Positions 4,684 through 57,056 of a stretch of DNA of 64,000 bases are shown here, in pieces. How positions within the stretch are numbered: position 1 is the first letter of the stretch; each line of letters starts with the position of its first letter. Location: the NCBI RefSeq assembly GCF_004681125.1, contig NZ_SIHO01000004.1, positions 62,001 through 126,000 of the forward strand, read 5' to 3'. Origin of the DNA: Glacieibacterium arshaanense (GTDB taxonomy: Bacteria > Pseudomonadota > Alphaproteobacteria > Sphingomonadales > Sphingomonadaceae). The notes beneath the pieces were generated by a model. That model was not told where the DNA came from. It saw only the letters and a list, made by a program, of their open reading frames with translations, and did no database searches. A program made the position numbers and the translations under genes.

Positions 4684-5612
4684 CGACACTCGTTCTCGCC
4701 GAACATGACAACAGCGTCCTGAAGGATGCCACGCTCGCTGCCGTGACGGCGGCCGGCAAGCTGGGCGGCGACGTGCATCTGCTCGTCGCGGGCCACAACG
4801 CCAAGTCGGTCGCCGAAGCCGGTGCCCAGGTGGCGGGCGTCGCCAAGGTGCTGCTCGCCGATGACGCCGCTTATGGTGCCGCACTCGCCGAAAACGTCGC
4901 GCCGCTGATCGTGTCGCTGATGCCGGGCTATGACGCCGTTGTTGCGCCGGCCACGACGCGCGGCAAGAACATCATGCCGCGCGTTGCCGCTGCACTTGAT
5001 GTCGCGCAGATAAGCGAAATCCTGTCGGTCGAAAGCGCCGACACGTTCACGCGCCCGATCTACGCCGGCAATGCCATCGCCACCGTCACCTCGTCGGATG
5101 CGAAGAAGGTCATTACCGTGCGCGGCACGGCGTTCGACAAGGCCGCGACCAGCGGCGGCAGCGCGTCGGTCGAAAGCATCGGCGGGCCCGGTGACGCCGG
5201 CCTGTCGAAGTTCGTCAGTGCCGATCTGACGACCTCGGCGCGCCCCGAACTGACCGCGGCGAAGATCATTGTTTCGGGTGGCCGCGCGCTCGGCAGCTCG
5301 GACAAGTTCCACGAATTCATCGATCCGCTCGCCGACAAGCTCGGCGCCGCGGTCGGCGCCAGCCGCGCCGCCGTCGATGCCGGCTATGCGCCGAACGACT
5401 ATCAGGTCGGCCAGACCGGCAAGATCGTCGCGCCGGAACTGTATGTCGCCGTCGGTATTTCGGGCGCTATCCAGCATCTCGCCGGCATGAAGGATTCGAA
5501 GATCATCGTCGCGATCAACAAGGACGAAGAAGCTCCGATCTTCCAGGTCGCGGACTTCGGCCTTGTCGGCGATCTGTTCACGCTGGTGCCGGAGATGACG
5601 TCAAAGCTTTAG
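4680..5612 (+). CDS. etfA: Electron transfer flavoprotein, alpha subunit
   Basis: The FAD-carrying large subunit of ETF, 310 residues. The C-terminal FAD domain is clear: [18 protein letters not shown], then [21 protein letters not shown]. The extreme C-terminus reads MTSKL. The last 89 bases before the MT codons' end (5511-5599) are repeated at 6355-6443 with only three differences, all synonymous; the downstream copy ends TGKL and keeps a strong terminator. This suggests that the present 3' end was brought in together with the next gene and displaced the original one. Confidence 0.97.
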
Positions 5613-5638
5613 GTTGCTCGATCATCGCGGGGGCAAGA

Positions 5639-6334
5639 ATGCCACGAACATTATTCGTCCTCGCGATGATTGCGCTGGCCAGCGCGACTCCTTCAGCCGC
5701 GCAAGACGCACGCGTCCTTGCTTTCCTTAAGCAGGTCAATGATCAGCAACAGCCGCCTTCCATAGAAGTCCTTGCCGCGGGCGGTCTTGAAGCAGCCGGA
5801 CGCGCCGCAGCGCAGGGCACCTGCATGCCCCAATCCGTTGAAGTATCGAACGTCCGGCCGATCACGGGCGACCGCTTGGTTCTGCAGGGTGTAGCACAAC
5901 GCAGTCTACAGAACGGCTGGCGTTTCGATGGTGTCCTAGTGGGCTGCCCTTTGGGCGCGCGCGCGGACTTCATCGTCATCCGGGACGCAGCAGGCCAGCT
6001 GCAAATGCATTTGACTAACCTCGGGCAGTCGCTCGTCAGCTATTCGGTTGGACAGGACAGCGTGAGCAAGGCCATACTGATGAGTGACATACTACTAGGG
6101 AAGGCCGGTGCTGCCTGCGAAACCGGTCTCGAACGCCCGCTCGATTCCCGCGTGACGCAGAAGAGCAATGATCTTGGCCCGGAAACGTATGGCGTACGCT
6201 ATAAGGGCGGATGGACCGAAATTTGGACGCTTCGTCGCTGCAATAGGGAAATAGAGGTAGAAATGATGTTTAGCGGCGATGGTGACGGGGGTGCATACAT
6301 CAACGTTTCGGAGGCGGGATCGCGCCTTAAATAG
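5639..6334 (+). CDS. Unknown secreted protein inserted behind etfA
   Basis: A 231-residue protein of no family I recognise. An N-terminal signal peptide (hydrophobic [17 protein letters not shown], predicted cleavage before QDARVL) sends it to the periplasm or beyond. Four cysteines are visible in the mature part (in GTCMPQ, VGCPLGA, AACETG and RRCNRE), so two disulfides are possible. The C-terminal third ([20 protein letters not shown]...[11 protein letters not shown]) looks like a compact beta-rich domain. GGGGGCAAG precedes the ATG. Codon choice (ATA, CTA, AGG) is less GC-biased than in etfBA. It is bracketed by a duplicated etfA 3' end, a strong sign that it is an insertion. Confidence 0.7.
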
Positions 6335-6354
6335 TTGCGCTGTTTCAGCTCCAC

Positions 6355-6456
6355 GCGATTAACAAGGACGAAGAAGCCCCGATCTTCCAGGTCGCGGACT
6401 TCGGCCTCGTCGGCGATCTGTTCACGCTGGTGCCGGAGATGACCGGCAAGCTGTAA
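6355..6456 (+). pseudogene. Detached 3' end of etfA (34-codon remnant including stop)
   Basis: The remnant encodes [17 protein letters not shown] and onward to PEMTGKL plus TAA, matching etfA residues near its end. The first 89 bases differ from etfA at three synonymous third positions only. No start codon or ribosome site serves it. It is followed by an intact terminator at 6480, so it is probably the original etfA tail, cut off when the gene at 5639 arrived. Confidence 0.85.
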
Positions 6457-11923: not shown

Positions 11924-11934
11924 TTGGAGTCACA

Positions 11935-12024
11935 GAGCCTCCGGCGGGCAGGCGTGACGCCTGTACCCGGTTGAAGAGCGCCAAACAAATGGGTGCAGGC
12001 CTCAGGCCTGCCCGCCGGAGGCTC
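11935..12024. repeat. Paired inverted hairpin repeat, locus 6
   Basis: Left unit 11935-11968 (stem GCAGGCGT/ACGCCTGT) and right unit 11991-12024 (stem GCAGGCCT/AGGCCTGC), with the common spacer GAAGAGCGCCAAACA. It lies between convergent hydrolase and enoyl-CoA hydratase-family genes; the latter's TAA stop is 1 base from the edge. Confidence 0.9.
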
Positions 12025-12025
12025 T

Positions 12026-12802
12026 TTACTGCGCGCGGCCGCGTTCGACGACCGCGAGGCGTGCGGCTTCGACGGCACCCGGAGTGACCGCTGCATTGGC
12101 GGCCGACGAGCGCTTGTGCTCGATCGCCATGCCGTCGGCGAGCGTCACGCCGTAGCCGTCATCGATCAGGCGCTTATAGGCGCGCACAAAGCCGGTATCG
12201 ACCTGCGCCATTTCGGACGCCAGCTTGCGCGCCGCGGGCATTAGCTCGTCGGCTGCGAAGACGCGGTTGACGAGGCCCCATTTCTCGGCGGTCGCGGCGT
12301 CGAGGAAGTTACCGCTGAACGACAGTTCCTTGGCGCGGTACGGCCCGACCAGGCGCGACAGTTTCTGGCTGAGTCCCCAGCCGGGCATGACGCCGACGCG
12401 CGCATGCGTATCGGCAAAGCGCGCGTTCTCGCTGGCGAGCAGCACGTCGCAGGCCAACGCCAGTTCGAAGCCGCCGGTGATGGCGACGCCGTTGATCGCG
12501 CCGATGACCGGTTTACTGCACTGCTCGATGGCGCGCACCGGATTGCTGTCGGGGCTCTGGTCATTTGCAGCGCTCAGCCCCTGCTGGCCGAGCTCCTTGA
12601 GGTCGAGCCCGGCCGTAAACGCCCGTGTGCCGGCGCCGGTCAGGATGACGATGCGGACATTGTCATCGGCATCGACCGCACGCATCGCCTTCGCCAGTTC
12701 GATGCGCAGCGCCTGCGACAGCGCATTCATCGCCTGCGGGCGGTTGAGCGTGACGGTGGCAACGCCGTCGGCGATGTCGATGGTGACGATGGATTCAGAC
12801 AT
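12026..12802 (-). CDS. Enoyl-CoA hydratase/isomerase-family protein
   Basis: A 258-residue crotonase-fold protein. The oxyanion-hole segments are TAGLDLKELG and GVAITGGFELALACD, the second holding the first catalytic Glu. In classical enoyl-CoA hydratases a second Glu precedes the LGIMPGAGGTQ loop. Here the equivalent stretch is ADTHARVGVMPGWGLSQKL, with His at that place, so the reaction may be isomerisation, hydrolysis or something else. The ATG at 12802 has GGAG at good spacing; the 12814 candidate is a TTG inside that ribosome site. It sits alone between two repeat pairs. Confidence 0.87.
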   Translation of the reverse strand: MSESIVTIDIADGVATVTLNRPQAMNALSQALRIELAKAMRAVDADDNVRIVILTGAGTRAFTAGLDLKELGQQGLSAANDQSPDSNPVRAIEQCSKPVIGAINGVAITGGFELALACDVLLASENARFADTHARVGVMPGWGLSQKLSRLVGPYRAKELSFSGNFLDAATAEKWGLVNRVFAADELMPAARKLASEMAQVDTGFVRAYKRLIDDGYGVTLADGMAIEHKRSSAANAAVTPGAVEAARLAVVERGRAQ

Positions 12803-12819
12803 GAAATTCTCCAAGACTA

Positions 12820-12909
12820 GAGCCTCCGGCGGGCAGGCCTGAGGCCTGCACCCGATTGAAGAGCGTCAAACAAATGGGTGCAGGCCTCAGGCCTGCCCGC
12901 CGGAGGCCC
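12820..12909. repeat. Paired inverted hairpin repeat, locus 7
   Basis: Left unit 12820-12853 and right unit 12876-12909, both with stem GCAGGCCT/AGGCCTGC, joined by GAAGAGCGTCAAACA. It lies between the gyrB stop and the start of the downstream hydratase-family gene on the same strand. Confidence 0.9.
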
Positions 12910-12916
12910 TTAACCC

Positions 12917-25864: not shown

Positions 25865-26583
25865 GCGAACCGGTCGCCCCGACACTCAATCCGGCGCTCG
25901 ACTGGGACGCGCTTGCCGCATCATTCGCGCGTGACCGCCGCGTCCGCATCCATGATTTCCTGACCGCCGACTCGGCGGCCGCTCTGACCGCACATCTGCG
26001 CGCGCGACAGGACTGGCTGCTGGTGCTCAACTCGAACGACCGGCTGTTCGAACTCAGCCGCAGCGCGCGCGCAACGCTGCCGCCCGACCGTGCCGCCGCA
26101 CTCGCCACCGCGGTCAAGGCGCAGGCGCAATTCGGCTTCCAGTTCCACTACGAATCGATCCGCGTCCCCGATGCCGCCGCCGACCGCGCCGCTGACCCCA
26201 GCCCGATCAACCAGCTCGCACTGCTGATGTCGTCCGAGCCGGTGCTCGAACGGCTGCGCCATGTTGTAGGCGCGCCCGACATCGCGTTTGCCGATGCGCA
26301 GGCGACCGCCTACGCGCCCGGCGATTTCCTGACAGCGCATGATGACGACGTCGAAGGCAAGAACCGCCGCGCCGCCTATGTGCTCGGGCTGACCCCCGAA
26401 TGGCGCATCGACTGGGGCGGGCTGCTGCTGGTGCATGACGACGGCGTCGCCTGGGTGCCGAAATTCAACACGCTCAACCTGTTCACCGTGCCGCAACCGC
26501 ACAGCGTCAGCCAGGTTTCGACGTTCGCCGCCGACCGGCGCTATGCGGTGACGGGCTGGTTGCGGGCAGGGGTAAAGCCTTAA
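25861..26583 (+). CDS. 2OG-Fe(II) oxygenase family protein coupled to rlmN
   Basis: A 240-residue protein of the prolyl-4-hydroxylase-like double-stranded beta-helix family. The metal ligands read [13 protein letters not shown] (His and Asp of HxD) and later PQPHSVSQV (distal His), with RRYAVTGW supplying the 2-oxoglutarate-binding Arg. The N-terminal [21 protein letters not shown] is the usual lead-in. I choose the GTG at 25861 because it overlaps the rlmN stop (GTGA) and the family sequence starts right after. Members hydroxylate protein residues, including ribosomal proteins and elongation factors, so a shared ribosome-linked role with RlmN is plausible but inferred. Confidence 0.83.
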
Positions 26584-26673
26584 GAGCCTCCGGCGGGCAG
26601 GCCTGAGGCCTGCACCCGAATGAAGAGCGCCAAACAAATGGGTGCAGGCCACAGGCCTGCCCGCCGGAGGCCC
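26584..26673. repeat. Paired inverted hairpin repeat, locus 10
   Basis: Left unit 26584-26617 (stem GCAGGCCT/AGGCCTGC) begins directly after the TAA of the 2OG-oxygenase gene. Right unit 26640-26673 (stem GCAGGCC/GGCCTGC with centre ACA). The spacer is the common GAAGAGCGCCAAACA. It lies upstream of cfa on the same strand. Confidence 0.9.
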
Positions 26674-26735
26674 TTTCGTTTCGCACCCGAATGCAGCACT
26701 TGGCGTGCCTCAACGGGCACGTTACTAGTTTCACC

Positions 26736-28069: not shown

Positions 28070-28891
28070 TCACAGCGGCGTGAGGTTGATCGCCGCCTGC
28101 TTGCCGCGACGGTCGAGTTCGAGCTCGAAGCTGACACGCTGGCCTTCATCGAGACCAGCCATGCCGGCACGTTCGACGGCCGAAATGTGCACGAAGGCAT
28201 CGGGGCCGCCGTCTTCACGCTGGATGAAGCCGAAGCCCTTCTGGCCGTTGAAGAACTTGACGACACCGTCGACACGTTCGCCATTGCCGGCCGGAGCACC
28301 GCCGCCGAATTCGCGACCGGCGCCGCCGTAACCACCGCCACGCGGGCCATCGTTGCGGCTGCCGAAACCGCCTTCACGCGGTTCGCGCGGGGCACGTTCG
28401 ACGACCGGCAGCGGCTCGCCATCGATGACAAGGTCGGTTGCCGAAACACGGCCCGAACGCTCGGTCAGCGTGAATTCGAGCGGCTGGCCATCGGCGAGGC
28501 CGTTGAGGCCGGCAGCTTCGACCGCCGAAATGTGGACGAAAACATCTTCGCCGCCGTCATCACGGACAACAAAGCCGAAGCCCTTCTGGCCGTTGAAGAA
28601 TTTTACGGTACCCTTGGCAGTGCCGAGCACAACGCCGGGGCCCATGTCGCGCGGGGGACGCGGGCCGCCGAAGCCGCCGCCGCCCGGACGACCGCCGAAG
28701 CCGCCGCCACCACCACCGCCACCGAAGCGCGGTGCGCCGCCGCCACCGCCGAAGCGATCGCCGCCGCCGCCGAAACGGTCACCGCCGCCGCCACCGAAAC
28801 GGTCGCCGCCGCCTTCGAACTGGTCAAATCCGCGCTCACGCTTGTCGAAACCGCCACGGCCGGGCCCACGCCCGCGTTTATCAAAGCTCAT
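28070..28891 (-). CDS. Double cold-shock-domain protein with glycine-rich N-terminal tail
   Basis: A 273-residue nucleic-acid-binding protein. Residues 1-85 are a low-complexity tail of RGRGPGRGG and repeated DRFGGGG blocks. Cold-shock domain 1 is at about 90-157 and domain 2 at about 207-270; each has RNP1 (KGFGFV, KGFGFI) and RNP2 (VFVHIS, AFVHIS) and begins with the identical VKFFNGQ. A second Gly/Arg-rich linker joins them. Paired cold-shock domains are common in Alphaproteobacteria, but the long FGGG/RGG tail resembles RNA-granule proteins of eukaryotes. It probably acts as an RNA chaperone. Expression control cannot be read. Confidence 0.9.
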   Translation of the reverse strand: MSFDKRGRGPGRGGFDKRERGFDQFEGGGDRFGGGGGDRFGGGGDRFGGGGGAPRFGGGGGGGGFGGRPGGGGFGGPRPPRDMGPGVVLGTAKGTVKFFNGQKGFGFVVRDDGGEDVFVHISAVEAAGLNGLADGQPLEFTLTERSGRVSATDLVIDGEPLPVVERAPREPREGGFGSRNDGPRGGGYGGAGREFGGGAPAGNGERVDGVVKFFNGQKGFGFIQREDGGPDAFVHISAVERAGMAGLDEGQRVSFELELDRRGKQAAINLTPL

Positions 28892-33759: not shown

Positions 33760-35310
33760 ATGGCCATAGGGCCACGCCTCGACCTGCGCCAAAGCCTGCA
33801 GCTGGTGATGACGCCGCAGCTGCAGCAGGCGATCAAGCTGCTGGCGCTCAACAACATGGAGCTCGAAGCCTATCTCGGCACCGAGCTCGACAGCAATCCG
33901 CTGCTCGCATCGTCAGGCAGCGAAGACGGCGGCGATGCCGGCGAGGATTTCGCCGCCGGCGACCGTGAAGGCGACGGTGAAGGCGATGGCGGTGATTTCG
34001 AACCGGCAACCGCCGATGTGCTGATGACCGGCGCCGATGCCAATATCGATGCGCCGCTCGATGTCGACTATGCCAGCGAAACCTTCCACCACGACGGCCC
34101 GACCGACACCGCCAGCTATGATGGCAGCGGCCCGGCGCCCGACAGCGGGCTCAGCGCCACGGGCAGCACCAGCGGTGGCGAAACCAGCGATTTCGACCAG
34201 TTCGCTGCTGCCGAGCCGTCGTTGCTCGATTTCCTGCTCGAACAGGCCGGCGCGGTTTTCGACGGCGTCGAACTCGTCATCGCCCGCCATGTCATCGACC
34301 AGATCGACGAGGCCGGCTACCTGACTGTGCCGCTCGACGACATTGCCGACCGCCTCGATGCCGATATCGCCGTCGTCGAAGCCGTGTTGGCGCGCGTCCA
34401 GATGTTCGAACCGACCGGCGTCGGCGCGCGCAACCTGCGCGAATGCCTGATGCTGCAGGCACGCGAGGCCGACCGGCTCGATCCGGCGATGCAGGCGATG
34501 CTCGACAACCTCGACATTTTGGCTCGCGGCGACAAGGTGACGTTGCGCCGGCTGTGCGGTGTCGACGCCGAGGACCTCGACGACATGATCCGCGAATTGC
34601 GCCGCTACAACCCCAAGCCCGGCCTGCGCTATGGCGGCGAGCGCTCGCAACCCGTCGTTCCTGACATCTTCGTTTCGCGGCTGGCGAGCGGTGGCTGGGG
34701 CGTCGAACTCAACACCGCGACGCTGCCGCGCGTGCTTGTCGACCGCGGCTACTACACCGAGCTGTCACATTCGAGCGGCCGCACCCCCGAAGCCGAGCGC
34801 GCGGCGCGCAACTATCTGTCCGAGTGCCTGATTTCGGCAACCTGGCTGGTCAAGGCGCTCGACCAACGCGCCCGCACCATCATCAAGGTGACCAGCGAAC
34901 TGGTGCGCCAGCAGGAAGCCTTCTTCGAACACGGCGTCCACCACCTCAAGCCGCTGACGCTGCGCAACGTCGCCGAAGCCATCGGCATGCACGAATCGAC
35001 GGTCAGCCGCGTCACCTCGAACAAATATCTCAGCTGCGACCGCGGGCTCTTCGAGCTCAAATACTTCTTCACCGCCGGCATCGCGTCGTCGGACGGCGGC
35101 GAAGCGGTCTCGGGACTCGCCGTCAAGGACCGCATCGCCCGGCTGATCGCCGCCGAAACCGCCAACAACATCCTCAGCGATGACCGCCTCGTCGACGTGC
35201 TCAACGCCGAAGGCTTCAACATCGCACGCCGCACGGTGACGAAATACCGCGAGGCGCTCGGGCTGGGGTCGAGCGTGGCGCGTCGGCGGGCGAAGAAATT
35301 GGACGGCTAA
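33760..35310 (+). CDS. rpoN: RNA polymerase sigma-54 factor
   Basis: An alternative sigma factor for nitrogen and other enhancer-dependent promoters, 516 residues. Region I is the glutamine-rich LRQSLQLVMTPQLQQAIKLL at the start. Region II is an acidic, low-complexity stretch (about residues 45-140) that is longer than average. Region III holds the core-binding and DNA-binding parts, with AIGMHESTVSRVTSNKYL as helix-turn-helix and the RpoN box ARRTVTKYRE near the end. A likely target promoter lies upstream of glnK at 56.78 kb. The TAA stop abuts a repeat pair. Confidence 0.96.
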   Translation: MAIGPRLDLRQSLQLVMTPQLQQAIKLLALNNMELEAYLGTELDSNPLLASSGSEDGGDAGEDFAAGDREGDGEGDGGDFEPATADVLMTGADANIDAPLDVDYASETFHHDGPTDTASYDGSGPAPDSGLSATGSTSGGETSDFDQFAAAEPSLLDFLLEQAGAVFDGVELVIARHVIDQIDEAGYLTVPLDDIADRLDADIAVVEAVLARVQMFEPTGVGARNLRECLMLQAREADRLDPAMQAMLDNLDILARGDKVTLRRLCGVDAEDLDDMIRELRRYNPKPGLRYGGERSQPVVPDIFVSRLASGGWGVELNTATLPRVLVDRGYYTELSHSSGRTPEAERAARNYLSECLISATWLVKALDQRARTIIKVTSELVRQQEAFFEHGVHHLKPLTLRNVAEAIGMHESTVSRVTSNKYLSCDRGLFELKYFFTAGIASSDGGEAVSGLAVKDRIARLIAAETANNILSDDRLVDVLNAEGFNIARRTVTKYREALGLGSSVARRRAKKLDG

Positions 35311-35401
35311 GAGCCTCCGGCGGGCAGGCCTGAGGCCTGCACCCATTTGAAGAGCGCCTAACAATTGGGTGCAGGGCCTAGGCCCTGCCCGCCGGAGGCT
35401 C
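35311..35401. repeat. Paired inverted hairpin repeat, locus 12
   Basis: Left unit 35311-35344 (stem GCAGGCCT/AGGCCTGC) starts right after the rpoN TAA. Right unit 35367-35401 (stem GCAGGGCC/GGCCCTGC). The spacer is a close variant of the common one (GAAGAGCGCCTAACA). It lies between convergent genes. Confidence 0.9.
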
Positions 35402-35406
35402 TCAGC

Positions 35407-41294: not shown

Positions 41295-41480
41295 ACCGGC
41301 AGCCCCTGCCAGCAATCCGTGCGCGCCGCACGGTGCCAATTGCCACGTCGAAATTCGACTGCCTCTTAATCACATTATCATTTAAATAAATTTTGTATTT
41401 GTCCCTTGAAATTCGGCATATCAGGCAACATCTGGTGTTCAGGGCCGTTGATGGCCGTAGAGAATTGATGGAGCGAATTG
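41295..41480 (+). promoter_or_regulatory. AT-rich upstream region of the PEPxxWA-CTERM gene
   Basis: The stretch 41365-41400 (TTAATCACATTATCATTTAA and following) is strikingly AT-rich for this genome and lies 80-115 bases before the next start, a likely promoter. No defined operator recognised. Confidence 0.4.
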
Positions 41481-42209
41481 ATGCTGTTTCGCCTTGCTAT
41501 GGTTGCCGCGATTGTCGCTGGCGCCGCGTCTTCGGCGGGGGCCGTGACGACCCTGATGTGGTCGAGCACTGCCGACGTCGGCAAGACCCAGACCGTGAGC
41601 TTTAACGGGCTTTATGGTGCGTCGGTCAATCACCGGACCGTGGCCACGCCGCTCGCCGGCCTGAGTTCGACTCTGGCACTGACGCTGACGAGGGTCAGCG
41701 GCAAGGACTGGACGTTCGACTATGCTGTCGACAACACGTCGCTGGCGCCGGTTGCGGCCTCCAAGGTTTCGGTGTTCGGCTTTGACTCGCTCGGCAAGAT
41801 TTCGGGCGCCAGCTCGACCGGCGCGTTCGGCAGGTCGGGCAGCGGCCCGGTGCCGCTGCTCGGCACCTCGGCCGACGTCTGCTTCCGCGTCAGCGGAAGT
41901 GATTGCACCGGCGGCAACTCGGGTGTGACGATCGACGAACCCCTGTCGAAGGGTAGCCTGACGCTACGCTTCGAACGCGCTACGCCGCTGGTCAATCTGA
42001 ACAACTTCTTCGTGCGTTATGCTGCGGTCACCAACGCCAACAGGTCGATCAACAACGTCAACGGCACCAGCGGTGAGGCCGTGTTGATGGCCGACGCTGT
42101 CGATAGCGTGCCCGAACCGGCCAGCTGGGCGATGATGATTACCGGCTTCGGTCTCATCGGTGGCACGCTGCGCCGCCGGCGCACCACCTTGGCGACCACG
42201 ACCTGCTAA
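41481..42209 (+). CDS. PEPxxWA-CTERM sorting-domain protein of unknown function
   Basis: A 242-residue exported protein. The signal peptide (LFRLAMVAAIVAGAASSAGA) is followed by a beta-rich body with many Ser, Thr and Gly residues and two cysteines (VCFRVSGSDCTGG). The C-terminal sorting signal has SVPEPASWAMM, the hydrophobic ITGFGLIGGTL and an Arg cluster RRRR, typical of PEPxxWA-CTERM proteins processed by an exosortase-like system. The ATG at 41481 has GGAG upstream. Such proteins are usually extracellular and linked to exopolysaccharide or biofilm. The body shows no enzyme motif. A 12-bp stem hairpin follows at 42257. Confidence 0.84.
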   Translation: MLFRLAMVAAIVAGAASSAGAVTTLMWSSTADVGKTQTVSFNGLYGASVNHRTVATPLAGLSSTLALTLTRVSGKDWTFDYAVDNTSLAPVAASKVSVFGFDSLGKISGASSTGAFGRSGSGPVPLLGTSADVCFRVSGSDCTGGNSGVTIDEPLSKGSLTLRFERATPLVNLNNFFVRYAAVTNANRSINNVNGTSGEAVLMADAVDSVPEPASWAMMITGFGLIGGTLRRRRTTLATTTC

Positions 42210-42256
42210 TACCCCGATAGCGCGCGCCGCACCCCCCTGATCGCGGCGCACGTTTA

Positions 42257-42290
42257 GCCGGCCTCCTGTTTCCCCTGGCAGGAGGCCGGC
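42257..42290. terminator. Strong hairpin after the PEPxxWA-CTERM gene
   Basis: GCCGGCCTCCTG at 42257-42268 pairs perfectly with CAGGAGGCCGGC at 42279-42290. No T-run follows, so it may be a processing or attenuating hairpin rather than a classical terminator. Confidence 0.65.
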
Positions 42291-42356
42291 CTCCGTTCGG
42301 CGGCACGGCTGCGGCCACATGTCTGACGCGTCAGGCATGGCGCCGCGTCGGCATTG

Positions 42357-42454
42357 CGCCTATCAATCGTCGCATGTTCCGGCGCTTCAACTTGCTCGTC
42401 AACCGGCGGGCCATCATCGATCGGCGCGCCTTGAGCGCAACCGCGCAGCCATAA
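42357..42454 (+). pseudogene. Detached 5' end of glnD (duplicate leader and first codons)
   Basis: Bases 42357-42428 match 43035-43106 (the glnD leader and start) at 64 of 72 positions, with the ATG at the same offset (42374 versus 43052). It translates as MFRRFNLLVNRRAIIDRR against glnD MSWRFNSLVNRRAIIDRR, then runs into a stop at 42452-42454. It is a remnant, not a working gene, though its start region could still recruit ribosomes. It lies directly before the GNAT gene. Confidence 0.85.
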
Positions 42455-42467
42455 TCAGGAGGCTCGC

Positions 42468-42983
42468 ATGCTGGTCCCGGCAGCCGATAGCGACATTCCG
42501 GCGGTCGCCGCGCTGATGAATCGCGCCTATCGCGGCGAAAGCTCTGGCTGGTCGTCGGAAACATCCTTCATCTCCGGCGACCGAACCTCCGAAGCGCTGT
42601 TGCGCGCCGACCTTGCCGCCGAGCCTGCGGCCGTGCTGCTCAAATGGGTCGACGGGCCGGGGGCCGGTTTCGACGGTTCGGTCTGGTTGCAACCGGTCGC
42701 TGGCAACGTCTGGTATCTTGGATCGCTGGCGGTCGATCCGCACCGGCAGAATGACGGTCTGGGACGCCGGATCCTGGCCGCAGCCGAAGATTGGGCACGT
42801 GCTCGCGACGCCACGCGTATCCGCATGACCGTCGTCAATGTCCGTGAAACGTTGATCGCCTTTTATGGTCGCTGTGGTTATGCACCAACGGGCGCGACCG
42901 AGCCGTTTCCGTATGGCGATGACCGTTTTGGCAAGCCGCTGCGCGACGACCTCGCCTTCGTCATTCTCGAAAAGCCGGTTTGA
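42468..42983 (+). CDS. GNAT-family N-acetyltransferase
   Basis: A 171-residue cytoplasmic acetyltransferase. The acetyl-CoA-binding motif A reads LAVDPHRQNDGLGRRILAAAE, a slight variant of the usual V-x-P-x-x-R/Q-G-x-G-x-G/A. The segment NVRETLIAFYGRCGYAPTG is the typical motif B. The N-terminal DIPAVAALMNRAYRGE fits the family. AGGAGG precedes the ATG. It is flanked by two copies of the glnD 5' region, implying that it was inserted there. Substrate unknown; small-molecule amine acetylation is the default guess. Confidence 0.85.
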   Translation: MLVPAADSDIPAVAALMNRAYRGESSGWSSETSFISGDRTSEALLRADLAAEPAAVLLKWVDGPGAGFDGSVWLQPVAGNVWYLGSLAVDPHRQNDGLGRRILAAAEDWARARDATRIRMTVVNVRETLIAFYGRCGYAPTGATEPFPYGDDRFGKPLRDDLAFVILEKPV

Positions 42984-43051
42984 CCGCCGCCTGGTATATG
43001 CGTCACCGCCAACGGTAGCGCGGCGCGCACAAACCGCCTATCAAACGCTGC

Positions 43052-45820
43052 ATGTCTTGGCGCTTCAACTCGCTCGTCAACCGGCGTGCCATCATCGATC
43101 GGCGCGTCGTCAGCGAAGCACTAGCGGAAATTGCCGAAAAGCACGACCGCGTCGAAGCCCGGCGTGACGCCGCTGCCGCACTGGTCAAGGCGGCGATGGT
43201 CGCGGGGCGCGCCGAACTGCAGCGACGGTTGCTCGAACATCCGTCGCGCGGGCTCGAAGCGGCCGCCGGCTATGCCTTCCTGACCGACCAGATGCTGCGG
43301 CTGATTTTCGATTTCACCATCACCGCACTCTATCCGGTCACCAATCGCACCGCCTCCGAACGCATCACGCTGATCGCGGTCGGCGGCTATGGGCGCGGCG
43401 AAATGGCGCCGTTTTCGGACATCGACGTGATGTTCCTGACGCCGTGGAAACAGACCGCTTGGGGCGAGCAGGTCATCGAAACGATGCTCTATCTGCTCTG
43501 GGACCTCGGTCTCAAGGTCGGCCATTCGACGCGCTCGGTCGATGACATGATCCGCATGGCGAAATCCGACCTCACGATCCGCACCGCGTTGCTTGAATCG
43601 CGCTACGTCTGGGGCGACCAGCCGCTGTACGACGAAGCCTCGGCGCGCTTCCGCAAGGAAGTCGTGGCGGGCACCGCACGCGCCTTCATCGCCGACAAAC
43701 TCGCCGAACGCGACACCCGCCACCAGCGCATGGGCGACAGCCGCTACGTCGTCGAACCCAATTTGAAGGAGGGCAAGGGCGGCCTGCGCGACCTCCACAC
43801 TTTGTTCTGGATCGGCAAATACGCCTATCAGGTGCAGTCGGTGAACGAGCTGGTCGACAAGGGACTGCTCACCGCGCCCGAGCTGCGCCAGTTCCTCAAG
43901 GCCGAAAATTTCCTGTGGGCGGTGCGTTGCAACCTCCACGATATCGCCGGCCGCGCCGAAGAACGGCTGACGTTCGACGTCCAGCGCGAGCTCGCGGTGC
44001 GCATGCGCTATGCCGAGCGCGGCGGCATGTCGGCGGTCGAACGCTTCATGCGCCACTACTTTCTGGTGGCACGTCAGGTCGGTGACTTGACCGGACTGTT
44101 CCTCGCGCACTTGGATGAAAGCTTCGGCCGCGCTGCGTGGCTGCCGACGATCACCCGCAAACCCAAGAAGCTCCACGGTTTCACGCTGCGCCGCGGCCGC
44201 ATCGGCGTGCCGAATGACCGCTTCTTCCACGAAGACCCGGTACGGCTGATCGAAATGTTCGCACTCGCCGACAGCGAAAACCTCGACATTCACCCGCTGG
44301 CGATGCGCCAGGCCGGCCGCGATGCCAATCTGGTCAACGAGAAAGTCCGCCAGGACCCTCGGGCCAACGCGCTGTTCCTGTCGGTGCTGACCAGCAAGAA
44401 TCGACCTGAAACGGTGCTGCGCTGGATGAGCGAGGCGGGCGTCTTCGGGCGCTTCATTCCCGATTTCGGCCGCGTCGTGGCGCAGATGCAGTATGATATG
44501 TACCACCACTATACGGTGGACGAGCACACCATTCGGGCCATCGGCCTGCTGGCGCTGATCGAAGCCGGCAAGCTCAAATCGGATCACCCGCTGTCGACCG
44601 CCATTATCCGCCAGCTGGTGTCGCGGCGCGTGCTCTATGTTGCGGTACTGCTCCACGATATCGCCAAGGGCCGCGGCGGCGACCACAGCGAAATCGGCGC
44701 TGAAATCGCGCTCAAGCTGTGCCCGCGGCTCGGGCTGACACCCGCCGAAACCGAAACCGTCGCCTGGCTGGTGCGCTACCACCTGCTGATGTCGTCGACG
44801 GCGTTCAAACGCGACCTGTCGGACTTCAAGACCATCCTTGATTTCGTCGAAGTCGTCGCTTCGCCCGAACGTCTGCGGCTACTGCTCATTCTGACGGTCG
44901 TCGATATCCGCGCCGTTGGCCCCGGTATCTGGAATGCCTGGAAAGGCCAGTTGCTCGGTGACCTGTACGAAGGTGCCGAGGAGGTGCTGCGGCTCGGGCA
45001 CAAGCAAACCGGTCGCAGCGAACGCATCGCTGCCAAGCAGGCGGCGCTCGCCACCGAGCTGCGCTGGCCGCAGACCAAGTTCGCCGCCTATGCCAAGCGC
45101 CATGCCGATCCCTATTGGGTGGCCGAACCTGCCGATGCCCTGTTGCGCAACGCGCAGCTGGTCGAGGCCGCCGATACCAGCAAGCAGCCACTGTCGATTG
45201 CCACGCATGTCGACGAAGCCTCGGGGACGACGCTGGTCAGCGTCTATGCCAGCGACCATCCGGGACTGTTCTACCGCATCGCCGGGGCGATCTCGCTGGG
45301 CGGCGCCAACATTCTCGACGCGCGCATCCACACGACGCGCGACGGCATGGCGCTCGACAATTTCGTCGTCGCCGACCCGCTCGACCGGCCGTTCAATGAA
45401 CCGACGCAGCTGGCGCGCTTGAAGCGCACGATCGAGGATGTGCTGACCGGCAAGGTCCGGCTCGCCGACAAGCTGGCGGCACGACCACTGGCGCGCCGCC
45501 GCGCCGATGTGTTCAAGGTCGAACCCAATGTGCTCATGGATAACCGCGCGTCGAACCGCTACACCGTCGTCGAAGTCAGCGCGCTCGACCGGCCGGCGCT
45601 GCTCTATTCGCTGACCAACACCTTCTTCAACGCGCGCGTGACGATCCATTCGGCGCACATCGCAACCTACGGCGAACGCGCCACCGACACCTTCTACATC
45701 ACCGACCTCACCGGCGAAAAAATCGACAACGGCCCGCGCCTCAAGGCGCTCGAAAAGCGCTTGCTCGAAGTCGCGAGCGGCGCCGTCGAACGCGCCGAAA
45801 CCGTTCAGGCGGCGCAATAG
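43052..45820 (+). CDS. glnD: [Protein-PII] uridylyltransferase / uridylyl-removing enzyme
   Basis: The glutamine sensor that uridylylates PII (GlnB/GlnK) when nitrogen is short and removes UMP when glutamine is plentiful. The nucleotidyltransferase site is GGYGRGEMAPFSDIDVMFL. An HD phosphohydrolase domain carries HHYTVDEHT and LLHDIAKGRGGDHSE. Two ACT domains near the C-terminus begin about TTLVSVYASDHPGLFYRIAG and YTVVEVSALDRPALLYSLT. The length of 922 residues is standard. Its target GlnK is at 56.4 kb. A partial duplicate of its first codons lies upstream of the GNAT gene. Confidence 0.96.
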   Translation: MSWRFNSLVNRRAIIDRRVVSEALAEIAEKHDRVEARRDAAAALVKAAMVAGRAELQRRLLEHPSRGLEAAAGYAFLTDQMLRLIFDFTITALYPVTNRTASERITLIAVGGYGRGEMAPFSDIDVMFLTPWKQTAWGEQVIETMLYLLWDLGLKVGHSTRSVDDMIRMAKSDLTIRTALLESRYVWGDQPLYDEASARFRKEVVAGTARAFIADKLAERDTRHQRMGDSRYVVEPNLKEGKGGLRDLHTLFWIGKYAYQVQSVNELVDKGLLTAPELRQFLKAENFLWAVRCNLHDIAGRAEERLTFDVQRELAVRMRYAERGGMSAVERFMRHYFLVARQVGDLTGLFLAHLDESFGRAAWLPTITRKPKKLHGFTLRRGRIGVPNDRFFHEDPVRLIEMFALADSENLDIHPLAMRQAGRDANLVNEKVRQDPRANALFLSVLTSKNRPETVLRWMSEAGVFGRFIPDFGRVVAQMQYDMYHHYTVDEHTIRAIGLLALIEAGKLKSDHPLSTAIIRQLVSRRVLYVAVLLHDIAKGRGGDHSEIGAEIALKLCPRLGLTPAETETVAWLVRYHLLMSSTAFKRDLSDFKTILDFVEVVASPERLRLLLILTVVDIRAVGPGIWNAWKGQLLGDLYEGAEEVLRLGHKQTGRSERIAAKQAALATELRWPQTKFAAYAKRHADPYWVAEPADALLRNAQLVEAADTSKQPLSIATHVDEASGTTLVSVYASDHPGLFYRIAGAISLGGANILDARIHTTRDGMALDNFVVADPLDRPFNEPTQLARLKRTIEDVLTGKVRLADKLAARPLARRRADVFKVEPNVLMDNRASNRYTVVEVSALDRPALLYSLTNTFFNARVTIHSAHIATYGERATDTFYITDLTGEKIDNGPRLKALEKRLLEVASGAVERAETVQAAQ

Positions 45821-52147: not shown

Positions 52148-52570
52148 ATGTTCAAGCAACTCACCCCCGCCGTCGCGGTTTCGCCGCAGATCGAAGTCGC
52201 CGATGTCGCCACCGCCGCGGCACAGGGCTTCGTCTGCATCGTCAACAACCGCCCCGATGGCGAGTCCGCTGACCAGCCGGCGGGCGACGCCATCCGCGCC
52301 GCAGCCGAAGCCGCCGGGCTGCGCTATGTGGCGATTCCCGTCGATGCGCGCGGCTTTTCGCAGCCGATGGTCGCGGCGATGGCCGATGCACTCGGCGCCG
52401 GCAAGACGCTGGCGTTCTGCCGCTCGGGTACGCGGTCGACCAATTTGTGGTCGCTCGCCAGCGCCAGCCAGGGCGGTTCGATTGCCGACATCACTGCGAC
52501 CGCCGCCGCCGCCGGCTATGATGTCAGCGGGCTGGCGGGCGCGATGGCACAACTCGGCGGCAAAGCTTGA
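52148..52570 (+). CDS. TIGR01244/Blh-like phosphatase-fold protein
   Basis: A 140-residue cytoplasmic protein of the beta-lactamase hydrolase-like (Blh, PF04273) family with a dual-specificity-phosphatase fold. FKQLTPAVAVSPQI is the usual start, VNNRPDGESADQP the first conserved loop, and FCRSGTRSTNLW is the active-site P-loop, a CxSGxRS form. In relatives it is linked to sulfide oxidation and biofilm; here the physiological substrate is unknown. The ATG at 52148 is favoured over 52142 by AAGG spacing. A TTG start of the next gene overlaps its stop. Confidence 0.87.
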   Translation: MFKQLTPAVAVSPQIEVADVATAAAQGFVCIVNNRPDGESADQPAGDAIRAAAEAAGLRYVAIPVDARGFSQPMVAAMADALGAGKTLAFCRSGTRSTNLWSLASASQGGSIADITATAAAAGYDVSGLAGAMAQLGGKA

Positions 52571-52959
52571 ACTGGCTGACGCTGGTCGTGCTGCCCGGCG
52601 CGGGGATCGCGCTGCTGGTGGTGCTGGCGCGCTGGCTGGGATTCAACACGCAGCCGGTGCTGACCGGCCCCGACGAGGCGCGCACCATCGCGCATGACGC
52701 GTTGGTCGCCTTCCATGCCGAACAGGCGGCGATTGGTGCCGATGCGCGCGCCGCGCTGGTCGCCGGCCGCGACGGCCGTGTCGCGCTGGTGCGGCCGCAT
52801 GGCGACCGCTGGATTGTCCGCGTTGCCAATGGCGCGCGTGTGACGCGCAGCGGCGACACGCTGACCGTCGCGCTCGACGAACCGCTTTTCGCGCCGGTGC
52901 AATTGAAACTGGCGACCGACGCTGCCGGCTGGGCGGCGCGGCTGGAGGCCAAGCCATGA
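52567..52959 (+). CDS. Small N-terminally anchored protein of unknown function
   Basis: A 130-residue protein with one N-terminal helix (LTLVVLPGAGIALLVVLARWL) and a soluble domain of about 100 residues, beginning GPDEARTIAHDALVAFH. The domain looks like a small alpha/beta fold with repeated Val-Arg strands (GRVALVRPHGDRWIVRVANG). The only usable start is a TTG at 52567, overlapping the previous stop (TTGA); its own stop overlaps the next ATG (ATGA). These overlaps bind it into one operon with the Blh-like and hydroxylase genes, suggesting an accessory role for the hydroxylase. No family recognised. Confidence 0.7.
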   Translation: MNWLTLVVLPGAGIALLVVLARWLGFNTQPVLTGPDEARTIAHDALVAFHAEQAAIGADARAALVAGRDGRVALVRPHGDRWIVRVANGARVTRSGDTLTVALDEPLFAPVQLKLATDAAGWAARLEAKP

Positions 52960-53858
52960 AGTTCCCCGATCCCGTCCAGATCGCCGTGCCGTTCTTCATC
53001 CTGCTGATCATCATCGAGATGGTGGCGGTCAAACGCGGCGCCCGCGGTGCCTATGACTGGCGCGACAGCGCGACGTCACTAACGATGGGCATGGGCAGCA
53101 CGCTCGCCGGCCTGCTCAGTGCCGGCATCGTGGCAGGGCTGGCGTTCTGGTTCTGGCAGCACCGGTTGTTCGATATTCCAATCGCCTGGTGGAGCGGCAT
53201 CCTGTGCTTCGTCCTCGATGACTTCGCCTACTACGTCTTCCACCGCACCGCGCACCGCATCCGCTGGTTCTGGGCGAGCCATGTCATCCACCACTCGAGC
53301 CAGCACTATAACCTGTCGACGGCACTGCGGCAGACGTGGACGGGGTTCATCAGCCTCGGCTTCATCTTCCGCTTGCCGCTGTTCCTGATCGGCTTCCCGC
53401 CGGCGCTGGTGTTCTTCTGCGCCGCGCTCAACCTCGTCTATCAGTTCTGGATCCACACCGAAGTCGTCAAGCGGCTGCCGTGGGGGCTGGAAGCATGGCT
53501 CAACACGCCGTCGCACCATCGCGTCCACCACGGCACCAACCCGCGATATCTCGACCGCAACTATGCCGGGGTGTTCATCGTCTGGGACCGCTGGCTCGGG
53601 ACGTTCGAGCCTGAACATGACGACGAGCCGGTGCGCTACGGCATCGTCAAGAACCTGCCGACGTTCAACCCGCTATGGACCGCCACCCACGAATGGGTCG
53701 GCATCGCCAAGGACGTCTGGCACGCACCAAGCTGGAAAGCGCGCTGGATGTACATCGCCGGCCCGCCCGGCTGGACCCCCGACGGCAGCCGCGACACCGC
53801 CGATGTCATTCGCGCGGCGTGGGAGCAGGAACAGGCGCAGGCGCAGGCAGCAGAGTAG
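52956..53858 (+). CDS. Sterol desaturase / fatty acid hydroxylase family membrane protein
   Basis: A 300-residue di-iron membrane enzyme. Four or so transmembrane helices surround the histidine clusters HRTAH, HVIHHSSQHYN and SHHRVHHG, plus a C-terminal THEW. The family inserts hydroxyl groups or double bonds into lipid chains with O2. In sphingomonads such enzymes could hydroxylate sphingolipid, hopanoid or fatty acid chains; the choice cannot be made here. The ATG overlaps the stop of the small anchored protein (ATGA). The C-terminal tail is glutamine- and alanine-rich. A repeat pair begins 5 bases after the stop. Confidence 0.9.
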   Translation: MKFPDPVQIAVPFFILLIIIEMVAVKRGARGAYDWRDSATSLTMGMGSTLAGLLSAGIVAGLAFWFWQHRLFDIPIAWWSGILCFVLDDFAYYVFHRTAHRIRWFWASHVIHHSSQHYNLSTALRQTWTGFISLGFIFRLPLFLIGFPPALVFFCAALNLVYQFWIHTEVVKRLPWGLEAWLNTPSHHRVHHGTNPRYLDRNYAGVFIVWDRWLGTFEPEHDDEPVRYGIVKNLPTFNPLWTATHEWVGIAKDVWHAPSWKARWMYIAGPPGWTPDGSRDTADVIRAAWEQEQAQAQAAE

Positions 53859-53862
53859 CGAA

Positions 53863-53991
53863 GAGCCTCCGGCGGGCAGGCCTGAGGCCTGCACCCATAT
53901 ATTTGGGCTGTGTATCACAGCGGGGCTTTGCTTGGTTTTGCACCGTCCCAAACAATCGGGTGCAGGCCTCAGGCCTGCCCGCCGGAGGCTC
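53863..53991. repeat. Paired inverted hairpin repeat with expanded spacer, locus 13
   Basis: Left unit 53863-53896 and right unit 53958-53991, both with stem GCAGGCCT/AGGCCTGC. The 61-base spacer contains TTTGGGCTGTGTATCACAG and ends in AAACAATC like the common form. It lies between convergent genes. Confidence 0.9.
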
Positions 53992-54001
53992 TTTGCCTGC
54001 C

Positions 54002-54742
54002 CTACTTCGGCTTCTTGAACCGCAGCATGAACTGGTCAGTCTTGCCGCGGATCGACGGGTCGAAGACGTTGGCGGTATGCGGGTCGGCGGGGTTGGCGAG
54101 TGCGCTGCTTTCGCCGTCGAGGATGAAGCCCGCCGCCTCGACTTCGCCTTTGACGGTTTCGGGGTCGATGCGGTGCAAGGCGTTCGCGGCGCTGAGCCCG
54201 CTGCCTGGTGCGGCGGCATGGTCGACGATGACGTAGTAGCCGCCGGGCTTGACTGCCTTGAAGATGGTTTCGTTGACTTCGATGACCTGGTCGACCGACA
54301 GCGCATTGTGCAGGTCGTGGTAGTTCTGCGCGGTCCAGAACACATCGACCTTGCCGAGTGCCGAACTGCCGACGCCGTCGACTACGGTGACATCGCCGTA
54401 GGCCGGATCGGCGGCAATCGCCGCGATCATCGCGGCGCCTTCGGCATCGCGCTTGGCGGCTTCGGGCGGCACGATGGCGATGACCTTGCCGCCGGGCTTG
54501 ACCGCGACGGCGAACAGCCGCGTGAAATAGCCATGGCCGGGGATCAGGTCGGCGACATGGTCGCCGGGTTTGACGCGCGAGAAATCGAGCATCACGCCGG
54601 GCTTGCGGGCCGCGTCGCGTTCGGTGTCGCTGGCGGGTCGCTGCGGGCTGGTGACCGCGGCGGTAATATTGGCGGGGGTTTGCGCAATGGCGCTGGATGC
54701 AAGCATCAACGCGGTTGCGACGGCGAGGCCAAGACGGATCAT
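54002..54742 (-). CDS. Exported class I SAM-dependent methyltransferase-like protein
   Basis: A 246-residue protein with a methyltransferase fold but a signal peptide (MIRLGLAVATALMLASSAIA, then QTPANI). The SAM-binding strand is HVADLIPGHGYFTRLFAVAV, followed by VIAIVPPEAAKRD and TVVDGVGSSALGKVDVFWTAQNYHDLHN, and the post-motif GGYYVIVDHAAAPGSG. Because SAM is cytoplasmic, the export signal is puzzling; the domain may have lost catalysis. Start at 54742 has GGGAG at 7 bases; 54745 is an alternative. It is a lone gene between a repeat pair and the amtB terminator. Confidence 0.8.
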   Translation of the reverse strand: MIRLGLAVATALMLASSAIAQTPANITAAVTSPQRPASDTERDAARKPGVMLDFSRVKPGDHVADLIPGHGYFTRLFAVAVKPGGKVIAIVPPEAAKRDAEGAAMIAAIAADPAYGDVTVVDGVGSSALGKVDVFWTAQNYHDLHNALSVDQVIEVNETIFKAVKPGGYYVIVDHAAAPGSGLSAANALHRIDPETVKGEVEAAGFILDGESSALANPADPHTANVFDPSIRGKTDQFMLRFKKPK

Positions 54743-54813
54743 CATGCTCTCCCAAGGCTGTCCGCAAAGCATAGCATGAGTCGGGAGGGTGAGTCCCGAC
54801 GCCCGCGACGCGC

Positions 54814-54846
54814 AAAAAAATGGCCGGGCAAATCAATGCCCGGCCA
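54814..54846 (-). terminator. Rho-independent terminator of glnK-amtB
   Basis: 10-bp stem, TGGCCGGGCA at 54821-54830 and TGCCCGGCCA at 54837-54846, preceded on the plus strand by seven A, which gives a U-run for minus-strand transcription. A second perfect 11-bp dyad lies at 54883-54906, just after the amtB stop. Confidence 0.88.
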
Positions 54847-54914
54847 GTTGGTTTTCCTTGGGGAGGAACTTGTGGAGCCTGGCCGGTGCGCCCGTGGGCG
54901 CACCGGCGCTTGGC

Positions 54915-56354
54915 TCAATAGTTGTAGGCGCGTTCGCCGTGTTCGGTGAGGTCGAGGCCTTCGCGCTCTTCCTCGACGGTCGGACGCAGCCCGATGGTCT
55001 TGTCGATGATGAAGTACAGCACAGCCGAGATGACACCCGACCACACCAGCGTCACGCCAACCGCCTTGAGCTGGGTGATGAACTGTGCGCCCATGTCATA
55101 GGTGCCCGCAACCGCCGGAATGACGGTGTAGTCGAGGAAGCCCTGACCACCGAGTGCCGGTGCCGCGACGACCGCCGTGCCGAGTGCACCGAAGATGCCG
55201 CCGACGCAGTGGACGCCGAACACGTCGAGCGCGTCGTCGTAGTTGAACTTGTGCTTCACCGTCGAGCAGAAGAAGTAGCAGATCGGCGACACCAGCAGGC
55301 CGAGCACGATCGACGTCATCGGCGTGGCGAAACCGCTGGCAGGCGTGATGGCGACCAGACCGGCAACTGCACCGGTGACACCACCGAGCAGCGACGGCTT
55401 GCCGCGCAGCACCTGTTCAACCAGCATCCACGACACGGCGGCGCCGGCAGTGGCGGTGAAGGTGTTCATCATGGCGAGTGCGGTCAGGCCGTTCGATTCG
55501 AGGTTCGAACCGGCGTTGAAACCAAACCAACCCACCCACAGCAGCGAGGCGCCGATCATCGTCATGACCAGGCTGTGCGGCGGCATCGGTTCCTTGCCGT
55601 GGCCGATACGCTGGCCGACCATGATGCAGCCCACCAGGCCGGCAATACCCGCGTTGATGTGGACGACGGTGCCGCCGGCGAAATCAAGCGCGCCCATGCC
55701 CCACAGATAGCCGTAGTCGGTCGGTGCGTCCTTGAGGAAGTCCGGGCCAGCCCAGTACCAGACCATGTGTGCGATGGGGAAATAGACCACCGTCACCCAG
55801 GCGACGACGAAGACGATGACCGCCGAAAACTTCATGCGTTCGGCAAACGCCCCGACGATCAGCGCCGGCGTGATGCAGGCGAAGGTCATCTGGAAGGCGA
55901 TGTAGACGAACTCAGGGATGTAGACGCCGTTCGAGAAGGTCGCGGCGTTCGAGGAGATCGTCACGCCCTTGAGGAAGGCTTTGCTCAGCCCGCCGATGAA
56001 CGGCGAACCACCGGTGAACGCCAGGCTGTAGCCGTAGCACACCCACAGCAGCGCGACGACGCAGACGATCATGAAGACCTGCGTCAGAATGCTCAGCATG
56101 TTCTTGGTGCGGACCAACCCGCCGTAGAACAGCGCGAGGCCCGGGACCGTCATCAACAGCACCAGCGCCGTCGAAGTCAGCATCCAGGCGGTATCGCCCT
56201 TGTCGGGCACCGGCGGCGCCGGCGGTGCGGCGGCCGCAACCGCAGCTGCGGCTTCCTGCGCAAAGGCCGGGCCGGCCAGCGCGAGCGCGCCGACCCCCAA
56301 CAATGCCAGCAGCGCGGTGCGCCCCGGCATGTAATCACTCAATTCGGTTTTCAT
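54915..56354 (-). CDS. amtB: Ammonium transporter
   Basis: A trimeric inner-membrane ammonium channel, 479 residues with about 11 transmembrane helices plus an N-terminal signal peptide (ALLALLGVGALALAGPAFA) and an Ala/Pro-rich linker. The two pore histidines are in VVHINAGIAGL and VFGVHCVGGIFG. FNYDDALDVFGVH and WFGFNAGSNLESN are signature stretches. The ATG at 56354 has GGGGTGG upstream. It follows glnK by 12 bases and is blocked by unmodified GlnK at high glutamine. Transcription ends at the hairpin at 54814. Confidence 0.96.
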   Translation of the reverse strand: MKTELSDYMPGRTALLALLGVGALALAGPAFAQEAAAAVAAAAPPAPPVPDKGDTAWMLTSTALVLLMTVPGLALFYGGLVRTKNMLSILTQVFMIVCVVALLWVCYGYSLAFTGGSPFIGGLSKAFLKGVTISSNAATFSNGVYIPEFVYIAFQMTFACITPALIVGAFAERMKFSAVIVFVVAWVTVVYFPIAHMVWYWAGPDFLKDAPTDYGYLWGMGALDFAGGTVVHINAGIAGLVGCIMVGQRIGHGKEPMPPHSLVMTMIGASLLWVGWFGFNAGSNLESNGLTALAMMNTFTATAGAAVSWMLVEQVLRGKPSLLGGVTGAVAGLVAITPASGFATPMTSIVLGLLVSPICYFFCSTVKHKFNYDDALDVFGVHCVGGIFGALGTAVVAAPALGGQGFLDYTVIPAVAGTYDMGAQFITQLKAVGVTLVWSGVISAVLYFIIDKTIGLRPTVEEEREGLDLTEHGERAYNY

Positions 56355-56366
56355 GTTTGCCACCCC

Positions 56367-56705
56367 TTACAATGCGGTGTCGTTGGTTTCGCCGGTCCGG
56401 ATGCGGACGGCGGAGGCGACATCGACGGTGAAGATCTTGCCGTCACCGATGGTGCCGGTGTGCGCGGTTTGCTGGATCGTCTCGACAATCGCGGGCGCAA
56501 TATCGTCCGCGACAACAATCTCGATCTTCAGCTTGGGCACCATGTTGGTGGTGTATTCGGCGCCACGATAGATTTCGGTCTGGCCCTTTTGACGGCCGAA
56601 CCCCTTGACCTCGGAAACGGTCATACCCGTTGCCCCCGCACTCGCCAGCGCCTCACGCACCTGTTCGAGCTTGAAGGGCTTGATGATGGCAATGATGAGC
56701 TTCAT
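56367..56705 (-). CDS. glnK: Nitrogen regulatory protein P-II
   Basis: A 112-residue trimeric signal protein that binds ATP/ADP and 2-oxoglutarate. MKLIIAIIKPFKLEQVREAL is the standard start. The T-loop carries GQTEIYRGAEYTT, with the tyrosine of YRG being the site GlnD uridylylates. VVADDIAPAIVETIQQTAHTGTIGDGKIF is the C-terminal P-II signature. It is first in the glnK-amtB operon and is preceded by a sigma-54-type promoter at 56771-56786. Tight linkage to amtB marks it as GlnK rather than GlnB. Confidence 0.96.
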   Translation of the reverse strand: MKLIIAIIKPFKLEQVREALASAGATGMTVSEVKGFGRQKGQTEIYRGAEYTTNMVPKLKIEIVVADDIAPAIVETIQQTAHTGTIGDGKIFTVDVASAVRIRTGETNDTAL

Positions 56706-56770
56706 GGCCCGCGTCCCTCCTCTGTCCAAGCCATTCCCGGCCCGAAACAGGCCTTGGCTGTGAAGAGCGA

Positions 56771-56786
56771 TGCACGAACCGTGCCA
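56771..56786 (-). promoter_or_regulatory. Sigma-54 (-24/-12) promoter for glnK-amtB
   Basis: On the minus strand TGGCACG (56786-56780) is followed by four bases and GTGCA (56775-56771). The GG and GC are exactly ten bases apart, as the consensus TGGCACG-N4-TTGCA requires; only one base of the -12 box differs. The -12 element lies about 66 bases before the glnK start. No clear NtrC site was found further upstream. Confidence 0.8.
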
Positions 56787-57056
56787 TTTCGCTGCACCGC
56801 AGCAGAAGCTGCGATTCCGCCGCGATTCGGTCATCCGCCGTGCCTGTTTATTGTGCGGTGCGGCAGGGCAGCCTAAAAATTAGGCGAATATGGCGAGGTT
56901 TAAGGTCCTCCGGCGGGCAGGCCTGAGGCCTGCACCCGATTCATTTCGTGCCACGCACTTCCTGCTCCCCTCCCTGCAAGGGATGGGTCGAGGGTGGGCT
57001 TTAGCTGCCGTTCTGCAAACGACCCCCAAAATTGTCACAAACTAGAGAAAATCACC
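56787..57056. other. Intergenic stretch upstream of glnK and the Imm27 leader
   Basis: Holds repeat unit 14 (56904-56937) and a short TCCCT/AGGGA hairpin near 56970. I see no gene. The region 57018-57029 shares a 12-base string with the patatin 3' end, which is probably chance. Confidence 0.5.
56904..56937. repeat. Hairpin repeat unit, left arm, locus 14
   Basis: TAAGGTCCTCCGGCGGG edge with stem GCAGGCCT/AGGCCTGC and terminal CACCC. A TAA precedes it although no gene ends here. It faces the right arm at 57481 across the Imm27 gene. Confidence 0.88.

Follow-up and report, generated by a model that had tools for sequence, protein, structure and literature searches.

In Glacieibacterium arshaanense, a single GNAT acetyltransferase gene lies between two direct copies of the 5′ end of glnD, and it was probably (with a probability of roughly 0.55) inserted there by RecA-type recombination with donor DNA, an event that would have duplicated a 98-nt piece bearing the probable glnD promoter. 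The locus forms part of a contiguous stretch of 64 kb, hereafter the window, which was analyzed as a whole. A preliminary description of this DNA had reported that 64 of the 72 bases at 42357-42428 recur at 43035-43106, with an ATG at the same offset, and had proposed the insertion of an acetyltransferase gene at glnD with duplication of the glnD 5′ end. Letter-by-letter comparison bears out the match (64/72 identical; ATG at 42374 in the upstream copy, A, and at 43052 in the downstream copy, B), and the repeat is actually longer, running without gaps over 98 nt (42340-42437 vs. 43018-43115) with 79/98 identical positions and a spacing of 678 nt. When 42340-42440 was searched against the whole genome at E ≤ 0.001, two places only were recovered, the second at E 1.2e-21; the repeat is therefore neither a chance match nor a member of a repeat family of the longer kind that the preliminary description had set against its own reading.

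The gene between the copies is the acetyltransferase gene initially described (Table 1). Its product belongs to the GNAT family by PF00583, with 49.9 bits against a gathering score of 20.7, and can be aligned over its full length with eight homologues (50-66% identity), 38 columns being invariant in all nine proteins. In this alignment, residues 94-99 read QNDGLG, which we take to be the acetyl-CoA motif Q-x-x-G-x-G of GNAT acetyltransferases, and a search among solved structures gave five weak hits, all on GNAT proteins, the best of them at E 9.9e-5. The downstream gene is glnD by NF003467, with a score of 1323.8 bits where the cut-off is 959.

Table 1. Features at the glnD locus, in window coordinates.
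Feature	Position	Strand	Remarks
Cistern-family PEP-CTERM gene	41478..42209	+	Resident upstream neighbor; upstream of glnD in both congeners too
Probable glnD core promoter, copy A	42338..42366	+	TGGCGC, 17 nt, TATCAA (42361-42366), 7 nt, ATG; promoter role predicted
Copy A (upstream), glnD leader plus first codons	42340..42437	+	Leader apparently resident (33/36 identical to G002), coding part changed
glnD-start remnant	42374..42454	+	26 codons, followed by a stop; stop 2 nt before AGGAGG
AGGAGG, Shine-Dalgarno-like	42457..42462	+	5 nt before GNAT ATG
GNAT acetyltransferase gene	42468..42983	+	171 aa, intact open frame; PF00583, 4.7e-13
Probable glnD core promoter, copy B	43016..43044	+	TAGCGC, 17 nt, TATCAA (43039-43044), 7 nt, ATG; promoter role predicted
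Copy B, downstream copy	43018..43115	+	Leader divergent, coding part apparently native
glnD, [protein-PII] uridylyltransferase	43052..45820	+	922 aa, intact open frame; NF003467

Comparison within the genus supports an insertion. The genus sample comprised three genomes, namely the one under study (G000) and two congeners, G001 and G002, both of them draft assemblies of hundreds of contigs with a completeness of 94% and 84%, respectively. In both congeners the 98 nt occur once, preceded by the same PEP-CTERM gene and continuous with glnD, and the first 1000 bases of glnD are 84-98% identical per 100 nt to either of them. No GNAT match was found in these two drafts at E 1e-15; a search with the insert DNA gave no match in G001, and in G002 it hit two short stretches at other places, one of 82 nt at 74% and another of 40 nt at 85%. 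An upstream copy of the own glnD start was found at 0/53 glnD loci of relatives, congeners included and four genomes counted twice. Relative to G001, the site shows a duplication without deletion of target DNA. Two marks of insertion-duplication by single crossover are thus present, namely direct target repeats on both sides of the insert and a single-copy, insert-free site in both congeners. As a separate observation on this neighborhood, a cistern-family PEP-CTERM gene stands between mutS and glnD in this genus, and in several other genera the mutS match ends about 75 nt or less from glnD (loci L145, L152, L154, L156, and L161).

Set against the congeners, the two copies look mosaic. In the 36-nt leader, copy A differs from G002 at three positions and from G001 at seven, whereas copy B differs from G002 at 12, from G001 at nine, and from copy A at 12, the congeners differing from each other at eight. 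Over the 61 nt of coding sequence that follow the ATG, copy B shows one difference from G002 and two from G001, and copy A seven and six, respectively. Copy A follows on the resident upstream sequence without interruption (55 of 60 positions as in G002), and the leader of copy A and the coding part of copy B both look resident. The leader of copy B may belong to a different lineage or go back to an old split, and the coding part of copy A may have decayed or be the donor's. The preliminary description had spoken of an upstream copy decayed to a 26-codon frame; the frame itself stands, and decay is one of two readings of its coding part. A pattern of reciprocal mosaics of recipient and donor would fit the copies, but a decayed coding part in copy A would look alike, and the leader statistics, which are based on 36 nt and two draft congeners, vary with the rate assumed. 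The binomial chance of at least 12/36 differences is 2e-5 at the rate between copy A and G002 (3/36), 0.035 at that between copy A and G001 (7/36), and 0.08 at that between the congeners (8/36), so that the divergence of the copy B leader is striking only against the distance from copy A to G002.

The most serious alternative, possible though unlikely, is that the insertion predates the split of the three species and that recombination between the repeats later removed GNAT in the line of G001 and G002, leaving a hybrid single copy. A deletion of this kind would give the very pattern seen, with a congener leader like that of copy A and a coding part like that of copy B. Moreover, glnD groups G001 with G002 (40 sites vs. 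25 and 21 over 1070 nt), so that one loss would be enough, which is as cheap as one gain, and the insert found in this window at etfA, described below, is also patchy, being present in G000 and G001 and not in G002. Against this reading, etfA (533 nt) has G000 and G002 as the closest pair, with 23 differences vs. 27 and 34, and on that grouping two losses would be needed. The GC3 of the GNAT gene is low for the window (0.70, the ninth lowest among 53 automatic ORFs, vs. a median of 0.826) and suggests a later arrival, and the insert is seen in neither of the two congeners.

An origin of the repeats in the target itself is improbable. In this case, a double-strand break with a stagger of about 98 nt would have been filled in during capture of GNAT, and both copies would be native and have diverged later. 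Single-copy sites in the congeners and direct target repeats on both sides of the insert would be expected from such an event. However, among the 100 columns compared across copies A and B and the two congeners, not one unites the two copies against the two congeners, and the excess of leader differences from G002 in copy B (12/36) over copy A (3/36) also speaks against two native copies, with a force that depends on the assumed rate (2e-5 to 0.08).

In the preferred reading, insertion with duplication of the glnD start, the duplicated piece probably includes a core promoter. From 56 glnD loci of relatives, 40 usable ATG-anchored leaders were obtained, of which 36 were distinct; both congeners were included, the two copies of the own genome were left out, and one leader (L023) came from another family of the order. 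A [CT]TA motif occurs 19 to 8 nt before the ATG in 32 of these 36 leaders; five control stretches of equal length contain it in 4 to 8 leaders each. A common form of the motif in the relatives is CCTATCTG, and its position lies inside both copy A and copy B. Since a scan for consensus sigma-70 promoters between 42200 and 43200 gave 0 sites, the promoter assignment rests on this motif common to the relatives. In mapped promoters of Zymomonas mobilis, the -10 element is given as TANNNN and the -35 element as TTGNNN, the discriminator being most often 6 bp long and the spacer 17 bp (PMC7566282). The TATCAA found here 7 nt before the ATG, at a place conserved in 32/36 leaders, resembles that model, whereas the upstream hexamers, TGGCGC and TAGCGC, are unlike its TTGNNN (PMC7566282). 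Leaderless transcripts are defined by 119 TSS-gene pairs in the same account of Z. mobilis (PMC7566282), and 375 leaderless mRNAs are given for Caulobacter (PMC4117421).

By its motif, each copy probably holds a glnD core promoter, and by analogy with the Z. mobilis model transcription of glnD is probably leaderless. The promoter of copy A would then probably drive the remnant of glnD together with GNAT, and glnD would be driven by its own copy B. The preliminary description had suggested that the working glnD promoter may now lie inside or after the GNAT gene; since copy B, directly before glnD, probably holds it, reliance on a promoter inside GNAT is not needed. Read-through from GNAT into glnD may nevertheless occur, given that no terminator-like site was found within 42200-43200. 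The accompanying suggestion that nitrogen sensing could depend on the insert is not supported, as nothing was found that ties GNAT to nitrogen control.

The placement of GNAT behind a promoter copy also calls to mind tandem duplication, a known route for the activation of horizontally acquired genes according to a study on promoter capture (PMC11111574). GNAT might first have been silent near glnD and then have been placed behind the glnD promoter by such a duplication; we regard this as decidedly improbable. The likeness lies in an acquired gene that ends up behind a probable resident promoter, and the route is an established one (PMC11111574). On the other hand, the resident glnD keeps a second promoter copy here, unlike in the promoter capture described in that source, and the tandem-duplication route misfits the left flank (PMC11111574): on that side, resident DNA leads directly into copy A, so that a second, left-hand copy of GNAT would need to have been removed exactly.

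Insertion by recombination with donor DNA would have proceeded from a molecule in which GNAT lay beside a related glnD start. One crossover would have taken place in the shared glnD start, and the other end would have been joined non-homologously, either through prior circularization of the fragment, which would then integrate by a single crossover, or through direct one-sided joining to the chromosome in a manner similar to homology-facilitated illegitimate recombination (HFIR). The outcome would be the duplication of 98 nt carrying the glnD core promoter and first codons. A laboratory parallel exists in Escherichia coli, where the diagnostic PCR product for a partial lacZ duplication was obtained from 56 of 60 clones, and the duplications measured 109-950 bp in the 14 clones sequenced (PMC3240628). 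The authors ascribe them to the integration, by a single crossover, of a circular molecule missing part of the lacZ piece, a loss that probably came about by linearization, degradation, and recircularization, and the remaining 4/60 clones appeared to be HFIR, with deletions (PMC3240628). The glnD locus resembles this Campbell-type integration in that an insert stands beside a partial duplication of the target gene (98 nt here), and differs from it in that one natural gene with diverged copies, probably promoter-bearing, takes the place of a selected plasmid marker (PMC3240628). HFIR, described for three naturally competent species, would share with the glnD locus one homologous end and one non-homologous junction, but, as described there, it generally deletes target DNA (PMC3240628). 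The locus was therefore not filed as HFIR, its target being duplicated, without deletion relative to G001. In kind, the glnD insertion is thus well explained; what sets it apart is that the duplicated piece probably carries a promoter, so that both genes may have one.

Possible sources of the insert were sought among relatives and plasmids. A GNAT match at E 1e-15 was obtained in 68 of 298 genomes of the family (own included), and 52 further GNAT loci were taken from named genomes; the best homologues are at most 66% identical. Relatives with the GNAT gene and without the upstream fragment had been named in the preliminary description as evidence against its reading. No GNAT directly upstream of glnD, and no glnD at all, was seen in the flanks of 81 other GNAT loci (1.5 or 5 kb, some shorter), a check that covered the genomes yielding a locus, 38 of the 68 with a GNAT match having yielded none. 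A plasmid search returned six records of GNAT homologues, all below 60% identity, with no lead to a donor. Of 82 GNAT loci, 81 were long enough to be examined for flanking direct repeats, which were found at the own locus and at one other (L078), where the match of 34 nt (E 4.5e-5) was taken as chance.

The likeness to a second insertion in the window, at etfA, had been pointed out in the preliminary description and is upheld, each case consisting of one gene between copies of a gene end. At window positions 5510-6455, a gene of 231 aa stands between two copies, each of about 100 nt, of the 3′ end of etfA (5510-5611 and 6354-6455), which show three differences over their first 88 nt. This insert differs from that at glnD in that a 3′ end with its stop codon is duplicated, vs. 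a start with its probable promoter, and in that it is shared with G001 (93% over 1221 nt), G002 lacking it. The right etfA copy of G001 has no stop codon at that place, and the last codons of the left copy in G000 differ from those of the right copy and of G002, as if its end had been replaced by donor sequence.

That one window holds two single-gene inserts, each bordered by gene-end repeats of much the same length, could point to a small mobile element that uses gene ends and has these repeats as its attachment sites. Such an element is highly improbable, since the etfA and glnD repeat pairs do not match each other at E 1e-6, which argues against one site-specific element, the glnD repeat occurs at two places of the genome only, no gene besides GNAT would fit into the 678-nt unit, and just 1 of 80 other GNAT loci (L078) shows a flanking match. 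A transposon or integrative element was likewise rejected, as the one gene searched in the unit is GNAT, with no recombinase gene seen beside it, and the repeat has no third place in the genome.

Recurrence of such gene-end insertions was surveyed in the window and in 400 kb of the 3.26-Mb genome, sampled as 20 stretches of 20 kb on contigs C1 and C5, the criterion being same-strand repeats at E 1e-6 with starts at most 5 kb apart, sorted by reading the ORFs. The window holds two cases (etfA and glnD), both pointed out beforehand, and the other 400 kb hold none. The further gene-end duplications around one gene for which the preliminary description had suggested a search thus did not appear in this sample. 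The other repeats recovered in this way were rejected as candidates: L135 has tandem repeats confined to a single large ORF, L122 and L133 have long pairs that resemble paralogues, L128 has dispersed repeats away from clear genes, one ORF of the window is repeated internally (28138-28619), and a family of GC-rich palindromes is present in many copies. In a weak literature search, no report was found of a natural gene-end duplication flanking an acquired gene.

Tentatively, and with the odds rather against it, the two cases could mean that this lineage repeatedly docks single foreign genes onto core genes by gene-end recombination. The gene end and its expression signal would be duplicated and the core gene left intact, the newcomer gaining a promoter, as at glnD, or a place behind the stop codon, as at etfA, and the short direct repeats would make such gains reversible. 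The glnD locus, if the insertion reading is right, would be a natural example of one gene settling beside a core gene without harm, and of a promoter copied by recombination in such a way that newcomer and resident each own one.

Some further features of this DNA were encountered along the way. Four successive automatic ORFs at window positions 52203-56876 have a low GC3 (0.57-0.64 vs. the median of 0.826) and are perhaps acquired DNA. At least three related repeats, each about 120 nt long and lying outside clear genes, occur within 2.3 kb of one surveyed stretch (L128, 11418-13694). The palindromic family, AGAGCCTCCGGCGGGCAGGCCTGAGGCCTGCACCC with its complement, occupies 11 places in the window, for example 11934-12026, 12819-12911, 26583-26675, 35310-35402, and 53861-53993, and also has matches in the sampled stretches of the genome.
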